Below, one piece after another: positions 1-4,537 of a stretch of DNA of 64,000 nt. A model generated the notes under the pieces. That model ran no database searches, was not told where the DNA came from, and was given only the letters and a program-made list of their open reading frames with translations. Location of the stretch: contig NZ_JAIVCC010000002.1 of the NCBI RefSeq assembly GCF_020866905.1, forward strand, positions 62,001 to 126,000, written 5' to 3'. Made by a program: the position numbers and the translations under genes. The stretch comes from Salinimicrobium sediminilitoris (GTDB lineage: Bacteria; Bacteroidota; Bacteroidia; Flavobacteriales; Flavobacteriaceae). Numbering within the stretch: position 1 is the first letter of the stretch; each line of letters starts with the position of its first letter.

Positions 1-240
1 TCCGTAAACTATTCCGCTACTGTTAAGACCCCGCAGTTCCAGGTCGGTGAAATACTCCTTCAGCATTTCCTCAGGAATTTCAGGCTGCCCCGCGATCTGG
101 CACCTAAACTTCAGCCTTTCCAGCTCGGGTATTAGTCTTATTCCGCTTTTGCCCTTTTTAAGAGCTTCAGAAAATGCGGCTAATCCCACTCCGTTGGGAG
201 CGGCCACGCCCATTCCTGTTATTACTACTCTTCTATTCAT
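1..240 (-). CDS. Beta-ketoacyl-ACP synthase (KS), N-terminal part, cut by window edge
   Basis: The first 80 codons of a ketosynthase of the FabF/KAS II type are visible. The protein opens MNRRVVITGMGVAAPNGVG, the standard N-terminal strand and loop of the thiolase fold; the catalytic Cys-His-His residues lie beyond the left edge. By family it condenses malonyl-ACP with an acyl-ACP in the cytoplasm. Its ATG overlaps the TGA of the upstream hotdog dehydratase gene (ATGA), so the two are almost certainly co-translated. Since it ends an operon headed by a type III PKS module, it probably builds or extends a dedicated acyl chain rather than serving bulk fatty acid synthesis. That role is inference; a chain-length-factor-like KS lacking the Cys cannot be excluded. 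Confidence 0.88.
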   Translation of the reverse strand, partial: MNRRVVITGMGVAAPNGVGLAAFSEALKKGKSGIRLIPELERLKFRCQIAGQPEIPEEMLKEYFTDLELRGLNSSGIVYG

Positions 241-674
241 TCAGCTTTTATCATTCCTGAAATTTCTCCCCTGCAAACGAGTTTTTCTTCAGCATTAAAC
301 ATTTGTACTTTACATTTCAACTTGTTGAACCTGAAATATTCTTTTTCAGAAACTACCTTCACTTTTTCCCCGGGCAAAACAGGTAAATAGTAATCTACTG
401 TTGCATTTGATAAAGCAACTCCAAAGTTTCCAAGATCCCTGTCCTTCAGAAGAAATATTCCGAGGCAAACCACCCCGATCTGGGCCATACATTCGGTTAA
501 GATCACACCGGGAGTAACAGGATTATCCTTAAAATGTCCACGGTAGAAATAGGCGTCCTTTTTAAATGTATAAGTTCCTGAAATGCCATTTTCGGTCACC
601 TCTTCCAGCTCATCCACAAAAAGGAAAGGTTCGGAATAGGGAAGAAGCTCTATTATTTTCTTTTTAATATTCAA
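237..674 (-). CDS. FabZ-like hotdog 3-hydroxyacyl-ACP dehydratase
   Basis: A single hotdog-fold protein of 145 residues, the usual FabZ length. The active-site helix reads GHFKDNPVTPGVILTE, placing the catalytic His at about residue 47 and the Glu at about 61. FabZ enzymes dehydrate 3-hydroxyacyl-ACP to trans-2-enoyl-ACP in the cytoplasm. The gene sits between a FabL-type reductase and a ketosynthase, so the three could form a small acyl-chain module feeding the type III PKS encoded upstream in the same operon (inference). Its end overlaps the KS start by ATGA. A housekeeping FabZ is less likely because lpxD, lpxA and lpxC are not adjacent. Confidence 0.88.
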   Translation of the reverse strand: MNIKKKIIELLPYSEPFLFVDELEEVTENGISGTYTFKKDAYFYRGHFKDNPVTPGVILTECMAQIGVVCLGIFLLKDRDLGNFGVALSNATVDYYLPVLPGEKVKVVSEKEYFRFNKLKCKVQMFNAEEKLVCRGEISGMIKAE

Positions 675-820
675 TTTTTTAGGTTACAGGTTACGGGATT
701 CGAGTTGCGGGTTACGCGCTGCCAGTTGCCAATTTTTAATCTTTAAAAAATAAGCAGAAGCCATCAATTTTTAGGTTATCTATTAACTATTCACTACTAA
801 CTACTAACTACTAACTACTT
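675..820. repeat. Intra-operon spacer with 7-bp tandem repeats
   Basis: The 140-bp gap between the reductase and dehydratase genes holds no coding sequence. Four head-to-tail copies of the heptamer ACTACTA lie at 793-820, the last ending in T; this copy runs into the reductase stop codon (TAG, 815-817). A second degenerate run built on GGTTAC(A/G/C) lies at about 680-715. This is an intergenic simple repeat, not a CRISPR. Confidence 0.75.
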
Positions 821-1609
821 AAGATGTTCCCCTCCATTTACCGGGATTACAGTTCCAGTGATCCAGCTTGCCTCATCCTTGCTTAAAAGGTAAACAGCGT
901 TAGCTACATCTGTCGGGGTAGTGAGCCGCTTAAAAGGATTACGTTTAAGAGCGTGCTGTCGTAGGGTTTCATAACTGGGGATCAATTCGAGGGAACGGGT
1001 CACCGTTACTCCCGCCTGGATACAATTGGCGCGGATACCTTCCGGAGCAAATTCCAGGGCGATACTGCGGGTAATTGCTTCCAGGGCAACCTTGGCTGCC
1101 GAAACTGCTGCATAGTCCTTCCAGGCTTTACTATTTCCTTCACTGGTAAAGGAAAGTATCCTGGCGTCTTTTGAAAATAAATGGGCGTCATAGATCAGGC
1201 GCGTCCAGTCGTAAAGACTTATGGCCATGGCATCAATGGTTTGCTGAAAATCATCATTGCGAAGGGTAGGTTCTTCTCCCTTCATGGATTTTAAATTTCC
1301 TTTCGAGATGCTGTGGATCATGGTTCGTACTTTTCCTGTCTCCCCCATGATCTCCTGCATTTCACTTTTTATCTCTTCCCGCCGGTCTTTCCTGGTGGCA
1401 TCGCGGTTAAAGGAATGCAGTTTTACGCCCAGGTCGCGAATCTCATCAAAAGCCGATTTTATTTCGGGCAGATCATCTTTCCTGTCCCGGTGAACTACAA
1501 GAATATTCATTCCATGTTGGGCCAGCTTTTTTGCCGAAGCAAAGCCAAGTCCACTACTCCCGCCCAGCACAAGGGCCCAGTAATCTTTTCCTTCAAAATC
1601 CTTTACCAT
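815..1609 (-). CDS. Short-chain dehydrogenase, FabL/FabI-type enoyl reductase
   Basis: Rossmann-fold SDR of 264 residues with the cofactor motif GGSSGLG at residues 16-22 and NGGE near the C terminus. The catalytic pair is Tyr166 and Lys173, a Y-x6-K spacing. That spacing marks FabI/FabL enoyl-ACP reductases, whereas 3-ketoacyl reductases have Y-x3-K. It therefore probably reduces an enoyl-ACP with NAD(P)H. The start codon overlaps the end of the type III PKS gene by 7 nt, so the two are translationally coupled. It may be dedicated to the acyl primer or a polyene-like intermediate of the cluster product; the substrate is unknown. Confidence 0.85.
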   Translation of the reverse strand: MVKDFEGKDYWALVLGGSSGLGFASAKKLAQHGMNILVVHRDRKDDLPEIKSAFDEIRDLGVKLHSFNRDATRKDRREEIKSEMQEIMGETGKVRTMIHSISKGNLKSMKGEEPTLRNDDFQQTIDAMAISLYDWTRLIYDAHLFSKDARILSFTSEGNSKAWKDYAAVSAAKVALEAITRSIALEFAPEGIRANCIQAGVTVTRSLELIPSYETLRQHALKRNPFKRLTTPTDVANAVYLLSKDEASWITGTVIPVNGGEHLK

Positions 1610-2655
1610 TCCAAAAGTATTTTTTGAGCCGAAAATCCGGGTCCAAAACTCAGCATAAGTCCCTGTTCCCCTTTTTTTATTGGCTGATTAAGAAATCTTT
1701 CCAGAACATAGAGTACAGTTGCACTGCTCATATTACCGTAGAGCCGCAACACCTCCTTGGTGTCATCTATATTCTTACCTAATTTACCAAAAAGATCTTC
1801 AACTGTCTGTACAATTTTTTTTCCTCCGGGATGGAAGATCAGATGGTCCACTTTTTCAATGGAAGAATTATGTTTTTCCAGGAAAGGGTGAATGATCTCG
1901 GGGAAATGATCGGCTATGGTCTGAGGCACATCGGGATCTAGAACCATTTTTAGTCCGAGGTCGGTAAGGTCGAATCCCATGAGATGAGTGGCATCAAAGA
2001 AGTGGTACATATCATCGCCCACTATTTTTGGCCCAACAGCCTCCTCTTCCGAAGACATTAAAACACAGGCCGCACCGTCACCAAAAATGGCAGCGCTCAC
2101 CATATTGGCCATGGAAAAATCTTCAAGCTGAAAGGTTGCGGTAGGACTCTCAACCGCAATAACTGCAGCTCTCTTCCCGGGATTTGCTTTTAGAAAATTG
2201 TTAGCATATATCATACCCGAGATTCCTGCGGCACAGCCCATCTCGGTTACCGGTAAGCGGGTGACATCCTGCCGCATTTGCAGCTCATTGATAAGAAATG
2301 CATCAAGGGAAGGGATCATAATACCGGTACAGCTTACCGTAATGATAAAATCAATAGAATCGGCCTCCCAATTTGCCTGCCCCAGTGCCTTTTTTAGCAC
2401 CCCGGAACCCAGCTTCTTTACTTCCCTGGAGTAGATATTATTCTTGTCTTCAAAGGAAGTCGCAGTAAAAACTTCCGAAGGTTCCATTATGGAATATCGT
2501 TTATCAACCGCAGCTCCTTCAAAGATCTTGATCACTTTACGTTTATACCTTTCCTCCTGTCCATCCAGCCAGGTTTCTACAAAGGGAATTACCTCCTGGG
2601 TCTCGCGGGAGTATGGTGGGAGTTGTTTTGCTACAGTCGTTATTCTTACACTCAT
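1603..2655 (-). CDS. Type III polyketide synthase (chalcone/alkylresorcinol synthase family)
   Basis: A homodimeric-type III PKS of 350 residues, the usual length. The Cys-His-Asn triad is visible: Cys141 in TEMGCAAG, His275 in LIFHPGGKK, Asn308 in LYGNMSS. The C-terminal loop SFGPGFSAQ matches the family GFGPG motif. Such enzymes load an acyl-CoA or acyl-ACP starter on Cys, extend it with malonyl units and cyclise it to resorcinols, pyrones or related rings without an ACP. It lies 9 bp after the methyltransferase gene and overlaps the reductase gene. The FAD-enzyme, methyltransferase, PKS set suggests an alkylresorcinol, pyrone or quinone lipid; starter and product cannot be read from the sequence. 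Confidence 0.93.
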   Translation of the reverse strand: MSVRITTVAKQLPPYSRETQEVIPFVETWLDGQEERYKRKVIKIFEGAAVDKRYSIMEPSEVFTATSFEDKNNIYSREVKKLGSGVLKKALGQANWEADSIDFIITVSCTGIMIPSLDAFLINELQMRQDVTRLPVTEMGCAAGISGMIYANNFLKANPGKRAAVIAVESPTATFQLEDFSMANMVSAAIFGDGAACVLMSSEEEAVGPKIVGDDMYHFFDATHLMGFDLTDLGLKMVLDPDVPQTIADHFPEIIHPFLEKHNSSIEKVDHLIFHPGGKKIVQTVEDLFGKLGKNIDDTKEVLRLYGNMSSATVLYVLERFLNQPIKKGEQGLMLSFGPGFSAQKILLEW

Positions 2656-2664
2656 TCTTTTCTT

Positions 2665-3372
2665 CTATTTATATAAGATCCATTGATATCTAAAGGCCCA
2701 TTTTGGGTTGATCTCCTGCCGGCTTACCTGGAGGTCCTTTCCGAAGTTTTTCAGTTCCTTTTTTTTAAAGCTTCTAAGGATGGAAGTTAAACCATCTTTA
2801 CGATTGATCTTCCTTATTCCAAAAGCAGCACAAAAAGCCTTAAAAAGGTAATACGCAGTGCTGCTCCTTTGCAAGTCGTTAATGACTATTCCAAGACCGG
2901 CCTTTTGCGTAAAGATCTTCATTAGCTCTTTTATTTGCTCATCGCTGAAATGATGCAGCGTCAAGGTACATAAAATAATATCTGCTTCCAGTGCTCTAAA
3001 TTCTTCGGAAAATACATCCATCCCTTTAAAAGAAACTTCGGGATAAGCCGAAAGATTTTCTTCTGCAATGGTCATTGCATTTTGATTGGCGTCTATTCCC
3101 AATAACTCAAATTTTTCCCCGGTTTTGCGCCCGAAGTCAGCTACTTCTTTCAAGATACTTCCGTTGCCGCAACCCACATCAATGATCCTTATTGGTCTTG
3201 TGTAGCAGCAACTTTTTAGGAGTTTTTTAACCCCTTCAACAGTGATTTCATTGCCTCCAAGCCAAAGGTTTACCTTATCCAGGTCCTTCAAAGTTTTTTC
3301 CAGCTCTTCTCCCTGCATATCAAGATCGTCCATGATCTCCTTTTGGTTAGATCTATGTGTAGTATTCACCAT
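2665..3372 (-). CDS. Class I SAM-dependent methyltransferase of the PKS cluster
   Basis: A 235-residue methyltransferase with the SAM-binding motif I IIDVGCGNGS at about residues 78-88 and a Methyltransf_25-like core through LCTLTLHHF. It would transfer a methyl group from S-adenosylmethionine, plausibly to an oxygen or carbon of the polyketide product. Its ATG overlaps the TAA of the upstream FAD oxidoreductase by one base (TAATG), and the type III PKS follows after 9 bp. This matches the PKS plus methyltransferase plus flavin enzyme grouping of the Streptomyces srs operon. It is not visibly of the isoprenylcysteine methyltransferase type found in some Bacillus PKS loci. Confidence 0.85.
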   Translation of the reverse strand: MVNTTHRSNQKEIMDDLDMQGEELEKTLKDLDKVNLWLGGNEITVEGVKKLLKSCCYTRPIRIIDVGCGNGSILKEVADFGRKTGEKFELLGIDANQNAMTIAEENLSAYPEVSFKGMDVFSEEFRALEADIILCTLTLHHFSDEQIKELMKIFTQKAGLGIVINDLQRSSTAYYLFKAFCAAFGIRKINRKDGLTSILRSFKKKELKNFGKDLQVSRQEINPKWAFRYQWILYK

Positions 3373-4490
3373 TATTCAATAGGTTCTCCATGGGTTTGCT
3401 TAATGATCTTTGGCAGCAGAAAGGGAAAACCTGAGATGAGAGCTTGAGAAACTTCTGCAAGTTTTTCCCTCAACAGTATCTTTTGTAGCCATCCTGCTGT
3501 TGAAAATCTCCCGGAAAAGGTTTTTTCCCACCTTTGCCGGTAGGCCAGCTCCATTTCTTCCCGACTATTTGCAGTTTCTATATGTCCAAGGATTTCTTCG
3601 GAAGCAATTTTAGCGCTGTGAATTGCGATGGCCATCCCATTCCCGCAAAGCGGATGAATGAGACCTGCGGCATCTCCCAGCATAAGCACGTGATCTTCCA
3701 CGGCTTCTTTTTTACTGAAAGATATTTGTGCAATAGTAAGCGGCTGCTCGAATACCGGAGAGGCTTCCGCAAGGAAGTTATCCAAAAACTTGTTTTTCCG
3801 AAGTACTTTTTCATTGAACTTTTCTGGATCCTTGTGTTGCTTGAAACTTTCATAAGTGGCCAGGTAACACATATTAATATCACCGTTTTCTGTTCGGGAG
3901 AGTCCGCAGTAGCCACCTTTAAAATTGTGTAAGGCAACAAGGTCATCAGGAAAATCCTTCAGCCGGTAATGGCTTTTTACTGCCATCCATGGCGCCGGTT
4001 CCTTAAAAAACTTCCTTTCCAGATTTTTATCCAGAAGAGACCTTTTTCCGAAGCTACCCAGAACAAATTCTGCCAGATATTCCTCTTCCGAAGTAATAAC
4101 TTTAAAATGATCTTTTAAATATTTAATTTCCAGCACCTTTTCCTGAATGACTTCTACTCCATTTGCTTTAGCAGTTTCATAAAACAAATTATCCAACGCA
4201 TAGCGACTAACTCCAAAAGCACCCAAAGGCAGGTCTACATTCACAGACCGGCCAGAAGGCGTGCTATATAAAAGCTTATCGATAATCTTTGGTTGCAATT
4301 CATTTAGCGGAACGCCCAAATCATCGAGATAGGGTTTAACCTCCCTAGAAAGATATTCCCCGCAGACTTTATGATGAGGAAAACTATCCTTCTCAAAAAG
4401 GGTGATTTTTTGCCCTTTTTGAGCAAGATGTATGGCTGCTGTTAGACCTGCCAGGCCGCCACCAACAATAATGATCCTGTTCTTGCTCAT
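3372..4490 (-). CDS. FAD-dependent oxidoreductase, geranylgeranyl-reductase/monooxygenase family
   Basis: A 372-residue flavoprotein that opens with the dinucleotide-binding motif IIIVGGGLAGLTAA, followed by a Glu (FEKD) for ribose binding. A second FAD motif, GDAAGLIHPLCGNGM, lies at about residue 275. The fold belongs to the PHBH/geranylgeranyl reductase superfamily, whose members either hydroxylate aromatic rings or saturate prenyl chains. As the first gene of the PKS operon it may hydroxylate the aromatic product toward a quinol or quinone, by analogy with SrsC (inference). No transmembrane segment is seen. It lies behind the terminator of the upstream OmpA gene, so the operon promoter is probably within 4491-4553. 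Confidence 0.85.
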   Translation of the reverse strand: MSKNRIIIVGGGLAGLTAAIHLAQKGQKITLFEKDSFPHHKVCGEYLSREVKPYLDDLGVPLNELQPKIIDKLLYSTPSGRSVNVDLPLGAFGVSRYALDNLFYETAKANGVEVIQEKVLEIKYLKDHFKVITSEEEYLAEFVLGSFGKRSLLDKNLERKFFKEPAPWMAVKSHYRLKDFPDDLVALHNFKGGYCGLSRTENGDINMCYLATYESFKQHKDPEKFNEKVLRKNKFLDNFLAEASPVFEQPLTIAQISFSKKEAVEDHVLMLGDAAGLIHPLCGNGMAIAIHSAKIASEEILGHIETANSREEMELAYRQRWEKTFSGRFSTAGWLQKILLREKLAEVSQALISGFPFLLPKIIKQTHGEPIE

Positions 4491-4507: not shown

Positions 4508-4537
4508 TAAAAAAACCCGGCATATACCGGGTTTTAT
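4508..4537 (-). terminator. Intrinsic terminator after the OmpA lipoprotein gene
   Basis: On the minus strand an AAACCCGG / CCGGGTTT stem with a 6-nt loop is followed by a run of T. It ends the ompA-like transcript and separates it from the PKS operon. Confidence 0.85.

Follow-up and report, generated by a model that had tools for sequence, protein, structure and literature searches.

The fatty acid synthase (FAS) of the ars operon of Azotobacter vinelandii is of type I. This synthase, encoded by the operon itself, hands chains bound to acyl carrier protein (acyl-ACP) to type III polyketide synthases (PKSs), and acyl-ACP is accepted by ArsB and ArsC as well as by germicidin synthase (PMC6274091). 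In the srs/pkq trios, a type III PKS, a methyltransferase and a flavin hydroxylase or oxidoreductase yield alkylquinones, those of srsABC and pkqABC being alkyl-benzoquinones (PMC9927152). The type III PKSs tested from hidABC (hierridins) and from planctomycetal operons of methyltransferase, flavin adenine dinucleotide (FAD) enzyme and type III PKS made alkylresorcinols (PMC10896814). Here we describe a gene row of Salinimicrobium sediminilitoris (Flavobacteriaceae) in which such a trio is followed by discrete fatty-acid genes. It lies at the left edge of a stretch of 64,000 nucleotides, hereafter the window (assembly GCF_020866905.1, contig NZ_JAIVCC010000002.1, positions 62,001 to 126,000, forward strand). 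On balance we consider it probable that a dedicated type II FAS module feeds the type III PKS of this row, and that srs-like tailoring gives a phenolic or quinone lipid.

Like srsABC of Streptomyces griseus and pkqABC of Mycobacterium smegmatis and Streptomyces sp. MNU77, the row holds a type III PKS, a methyltransferase and a flavin enzyme in one operon. Unlike them, it adds a ketosynthase, a dehydratase, an enoyl reductase, an ACP and a phosphopantetheinyl transferase (PPTase), and the order of its trio is reversed, with the FAD gene first and the PKS gene last. The srs and pkq type III PKSs are reported with a Trp where the one studied here has Phe (PMC9927152). The hidABC and planctomycetal operons have the same three functions as the trio; no FAS genes were seen for them in PMC10896814, and the words 'dehydratase' and '3-oxoacyl' are absent from its main text. 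In contrast to the type I FAS of the ars operon, the fatty-acid genes here encode discrete type II proteins.

An eight-gene row with its own fatty-acid genes

The row runs on one strand, and its six genes at positions 1 to 4490 of the window are all encoded on the minus strand. It opens with an FAD-dependent monooxygenase-like enzyme of 372 aa (3372..4490; Pfam FAD_binding_3), followed by a PRK06202-like S-adenosylmethionine-dependent methyltransferase of 235 aa (2665..3372) and the type III PKS of 350 aa (1603..2655). Next come a FabL/FabI-type enoyl-ACP reductase of the short-chain dehydrogenase/reductase (SDR) family (815..1609), a FabZ-like hotdog dehydratase of 145 aa (237..674) and a FabF-like ketosynthase (1..240), of which the window, starting inside the gene, holds the N-terminal 80 codons. 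A sequence-only reading, made without database searches, had named all six as FAD oxidoreductase, methyltransferase, type III PKS, FabL-type reductase, hotdog dehydratase and ketosynthase, and Pfam matches back these names. The closest NCBIfam models agree too, FabL being the best for the SDR; all those cited score below their curated cut-off.

To the left of the window, in a genome stretch searched for open reading frames (ORFs) and labelled L002, the row goes on. The complete ketosynthase has 424 aa (L002:13966-15240, window -1034 to 240) and is followed by an ACP gene (L002:13616-13882) and an Sfp-type PPTase gene (L002:13017-13619). The sequence-only reading had advised extending the sequence in this direction; the two last genes were not part of it. 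From the FAD gene to the PPTase gene the junctions measure -1, 9, -7, 140, -4, 92 and -4 bp, so that the FAD and methyltransferase genes share one base. The genes had been described as mostly overlapping or within 10 bp, which is true of four of the five junctions inside the window; the 140-bp gap between the reductase and dehydratase genes is the exception. Short tandem repeats with units near 21 and 7 bp are found at this gap (window 689-822).

We compared the row with the best 80 of at least 577 stretches that encode type III PKS relatives in one genome collection. The order FAD enzyme, methyltransferase, type III PKS, (SDR), dehydratase, ketosynthase, ACP is held in all 80 flavobacterial loci as far as contigs reach, in the comparison with other family members that the sequence-only reading had suggested; the row is therefore more than chance. 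Ketosynthase and ACP stand behind the trio in 76 of the 76 loci whose contig extends that far. The basic set alone is present in 40 loci, and 25 add the PPTase; seven are without the SDR, and three lack the SDR but have the PPTase. The remaining five comprise four that end at contig edges and one with no SDR at the usual position, where an unrelated SDR is encoded much further downstream. Extra ORFs between the FAD start and the ACP end occur in 17 of the 76 loci reaching the ACP, some of them doubtful or just overlapping the ACP end; lipoprotein-like ORFs in L095, L096 and L105 and an 887-aa ORF in L104 stand out most clearly.

The catalytic residues of the fatty-acid proteins are invariant, counted over the window copy and relatives covering at least 80% of the query: C168, H310 and H347 in 77 of 77 ketosynthases, H47 and E61 in 79 of 79 dehydratases, and D5, D8, K53, E54 and K58 in 29 of 29 PPTases. 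The modified serine of ACPs usually stands in a DSL context. In the ACPs of the row it is found within NSA (77/77).

Elsewhere in the S. sediminilitoris genome there are a FabF-like ketosynthase, 34% identical to that of the operon and beside another ACP, a FabZ-like stretch inside a 468-aa ORF that reads as an LpxC-FabZ fusion, and a second PPTase. The operon module is thus extra. That its ketosynthase and dehydratase are the sole housekeeping FAS copies, which the sequence-only reading had named as a way to overturn its proposal, is rejected. The claim of that reading that these genes make a dedicated acyl starter stands as far as dedication goes; the ketoreductase is missing, and the supply of a starter is what the linkage of the genes suggests.

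The nature of the SDR follows from its active site. Y166 and K173 are spaced as Yx6K in 70 of 70 operon SDRs (71 before the unrelated SDR of L064, which also has the Tyr and Lys, was left out). The 16 other SDR matches in the same genome comprise 13 with Yx3K, two with neither pattern and one, L217, with Yx6K, which reads as FabI-like. SDRs beside the flexirubin-like ketosynthases of relatives, a set named from neighbour genes and not from annotation, are of the FabG-type Yx3K in five of five cases. By this contrast the operon SDR reads as an enoyl reductase.

Aryl polyene and flexirubin clusters likewise consist of discrete ketosynthase, dehydratase, ACP and SDR genes. The operon differs from them in that its SDR is of the enoyl- and not the ketoreductase type, and in that its ketosynthase belongs to another clade. 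In the ketosynthase tree (all supports given here are from unrooted trees), the operon enzymes branch by themselves (support 1.00). Their neighbours are the flexirubin-like ketosynthases (1.00; jointly 0.87), and FabF stands apart (0.97). The operon enzymes have GFGD in place of GFGG.

Two of four matching Novosphingobium plasmids, pLA3 and Mpl, carry ACP, ketosynthase, type III PKS and FAD genes in one row, with a methyltransferase nearby on the other strand; the second plasmid is unannotated and was read by profiles. In contrast to the flavobacterial row, this cluster has no dehydratase match and its SDR lies some kilobases away. With the operon profile its ketosynthase reaches just 84-88 bits, and in the tree it stands on another branch, which gives no support to a common source for the sphingomonad and operon ketosynthases. 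This suggests that discrete ketosynthase and ACP genes joined a type III PKS more than once.

The type III PKS and its tailoring pair

The Cys-His-Asn triad that had been read as intact is C141, H275 and N308, present in 81 of 81 type III PKSs. In sequence and fold, the best neighbours of the enzyme are PKS11, CylI and THNS; PKS11 and CylI are the nearest folds to its AlphaFold model (predicted local distance difference test, pLDDT, 84). A tree of 44 sequences places the flavobacterial type III PKSs and those from other orders in one long-branched clade (support 1.00).

This clade has residues of its own: P171, M216 and F228 occur in 81 of 81 members, at positions where most other sampled type III PKSs carry Cys, a small or polar residue, and Trp, respectively. 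Outside the clade, Phe at 228 was seen in L162 only among the sampled sequences. M237 is present in 80 of 81. F228 and M237 have the spacing of ArsC G284 and M293, and the match is drawn from this spacing. A Trp at the place of G284 shifts ArsC towards resorcinols, and an aromatic residue there favours aldol closure (PMC6274091). Residue 228 may thus lean towards a resorcinol product.

The FAD and methyltransferase genes are akin to the tailoring pair of other type III PKS operons. Their profiles match six sets of type III PKS, methyltransferase and FAD genes without FAS genes. Two are from Bacteroidota: L160 (FAD 360, methyltransferase 167 bits) and L161 (438 and 223 bits), which has an opposite-strand ORF between its PKS and FAD genes. 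Three are alphaproteobacterial, from Paracoccus (156 and 135 bits), Roseomonas (136 and 132) and Falsirhodobacter (147 and 121), and the last is from Deinococcus. On a Sphingobium plasmid, PKS, methyltransferase and FAD genes are all present among other genes.

Flavin-dependent halogenases carry a GxWxWxIP-like motif. The solved sequences nearest to the FAD enzyme are halogenases, and the nearest folds to its AlphaFold model (pLDDT 88) are flavin halogenases and 3-hydroxybenzoate 6-hydroxylase; the motif is absent from all of its relatives (0/79), and we rejected a halogenase function. In NCBIfam its best match is the geranylgeranyl-reductase family, below cut-off.

Proposed pathway and its alternatives

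In the pathway that we propose, the ACP encoded in the operon is charged by the PPTase, and the ketosynthase would elongate an acyl chain on it. Since the operon is without a ketoreductase, a housekeeping FabG is proposed to reduce the ketone; each cycle would then be completed by dehydratase and FabL-type reductase, so that the chain ends as a saturated acyl-ACP. Its acyl group may be loaded onto C141 of the type III PKS, which would add about three malonyl units and form the ring; aldol closure to an alkylresorcinol (or resorcylic acid) is the likeliest course. Hydroxylation of this ring by the FAD monooxygenase and methylation by the methyltransferase, as in srs/pkq-type operons, would lead to a methylated alkyl-hydroquinone, quinone or phenol, which we expect to remain in the membrane. 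From the linkage of the genes we infer that acyl-ACP passes to the type III PKS; the length of the chain, the type of ring, the order of the tailoring steps and the role of the product are likewise predictions.

Several observations weigh against this pathway. The module has no ketoreductase: the sole SDR of the operon is of the Yx6K kind, and among the 80 loci a second SDR (24%-like) joins the row in L036 alone. The enoyl reductase is itself absent from 11 of the 80 loci, and the PPTase directly follows the ACP in no more than 29 by profile search (28 by BLAST). That the SDR is dispensable in some lineages would also suit a general accessory FAS, for envelope lipids for example, which merely shares the operon and supplies no starter. 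We regard this as very improbable, given the constant place of ketosynthase and ACP behind the trio, the overlap of several gene junctions and the unusual NSA site shared by all the ACPs.

The loci without enoyl reductase would fit another proposal as well, in which ketosynthase, dehydratase and ACP make an unsaturated, aryl-polyene-like chain that ends up in a pigment of the polyenyl phenol kind. A type III PKS of Aequorivita that shares 69% identity with the Zobellia galactanivorans enzyme was placed by antiSMASH in a 'T3pks-arylpolyene' cluster (PMC6139392). The Yx6K spacing of the operon SDR and the separate clade of its ketosynthase both speak against a polyene or flexirubin product, as does the lack of a second ketosynthase beside the operon one in the S. 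sediminilitoris genome, and we judge this proposal improbable.

The remaining points concern ring closure and tailoring. The type III PKS does not fall within the clade of the sampled trio enzymes, which come from Bacteroidota, Alphaproteobacteria and Deinococcus (support 0.79, or 0.86 once L159, where no trio was seen, is included), in a tree that holds none of the characterised SrsA, PkqA and HidC; its ring chemistry may therefore differ. The likeness to srsABC put forward in the sequence-only reading applies to the composition of the trio, and does not extend to a grouping of its PKS with the sampled trio enzymes. PKS11, the nearest solved relative, makes pyrones (PMC6274091) despite a Trp at the aligned position. 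Pyrones were also the in vitro products of SCO7671, a type III PKS whose operon is pkq-like (PMC9927152, PMC6274091), so that F228 gives no more than a lean towards the resorcinol.

It is possible, if rather unlikely, that the enzyme uses the same starter supply to make alkyl-pyrones by lactone closure, which are then hydroxylated and O-methylated. PKS11, nearest to it among solved structures by sequence and by fold, is an alkylpyrone synthase, and the type III PKS profile gives the enzyme of L178 256 bits, against 103-179 bits for the sampled trio enzymes. The L178 gene adjoins an ICMT-type methyltransferase, a different one from that of the row, and its operon has no FAD gene; the FAD and methyltransferase pair found here is instead of the kind seen in resorcinol-tailoring operons. 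Sequence by itself does not discriminate between the phenolic and the pyrone lipid named in the sequence-only reading.

As to the FAD enzyme, the Deinococcus trio matches its profile weakly, with 24 bits (methyltransferase 90 bits). Homologues also occur without a nearby type III PKS in Bernardetia and on a Hymenobacter plasmid; a gene for this enzyme is thus not by itself a mark of the pathway. Its part in the planctomycetal operon is left unsettled in the paper describing that operon (PMC10896814). The Hymenobacter homologue adjoins an isonitrile synthase and a TauD-type dioxygenase (L173:3107-8116).

Neighbouring genes, distribution and possible role

An OmpA-family lipoprotein gene lies directly upstream of the row in most loci, suggesting vertical inheritance within Flavobacteriaceae. 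Between this gene and the FAD gene there is a terminator-like hairpin in the window (4512..4535, minus strand), which ends about 20 bases ahead of the FAD start codon and leaves little promoter room. By a loose pattern, a hairpin is found near the FAD start in 59 of 69 relatives' loci, some not terminator-like.

At the other end, 61 bp past the PPTase gene, stands a 243-aa ORF (L002:12224-12955) and then a gene that reads as aconitase-like. The ORF has no Pfam or NCBIfam match and a metallo-beta-lactamase-like look, and it was not counted as a row member; its relatives occur in 22 of the 80 loci. In other genera, a 143-aa membrane-protein-like ORF follows the ACP (L109, 14041-14472); its cluster is present in 22 of 80 loci, and it has no Pfam match and was likewise not counted. 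In 25 of the 80 loci the row is followed by an opposite-strand gene of the lipid-binding YceI family (for example L048:15424-15939; Pfam was run on one). One described type III PKS operon includes a gene for a lipid/isoprenoid-binding protein (PMC10896814).

The nearest type III PKS among the matches listed from the collection is that of Salinimicrobium sp. TH3, at 96%. In a set of 60 genomes, whose tally of 55 matches includes weak FabH-like ones, close orthologs occur in ten of the 11 other genomes of the genus (the exception is 74% complete) and in nine of 25 from other genera of the family; the 23 genomes that represent other families of the order have none. Across the phylum, an even sample of 392 genomes (at least 90% complete) has 158 with a type III PKS match whose E value is 1e-30 or lower. 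The matches listed from it include 35 close orthologs (at least 633 bits), the others listed reaching at most 247 bits: one from the genome itself, 30 from others of the family and four from other orders of the class; 15 family genomes are listed without one. All four from other orders sit in the same row, each with a PPTase, and two of the four lack the SDR.

Our literature searches, of mostly open-licence papers, found no product assigned to a flavobacterial type III PKS, in agreement with the sequence-only reading, and no paper for zobelliphol, a compound name linked with Zobellia. Type III PKS clusters make up 9% and 10.7% of Flavobacteriaceae clusters in two surveys (PMC7440613, PMC10734526), and are among the commoner biosynthetic classes of the family. 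The row is widespread in the family and is carried by many marine flavobacteria. Its clade-specific pocket, odd ACP and reductase-less lineages offer a way to test how type III PKSs are supplied with chains and how they close rings.

Polyketide quinones of operons joining a type III PKS, a methyltransferase and an oxidoreductase are reported as electron carriers in Mycobacterium and as products of Streptomyces spores, where they perhaps also carry electrons. By analogy, the row might encode an auxiliary membrane quinone pathway, in which a dedicated type II FAS builds a saturated acyl chain and its non-canonical ACP docks to a new type III PKS clade to pass the chain on, and whose quinone would serve as an alternative to menaquinone; we put this forward as a speculative and rather doubtful role. 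If the product were indeed a quinone, it would be an extra electron carrier in a major marine family.

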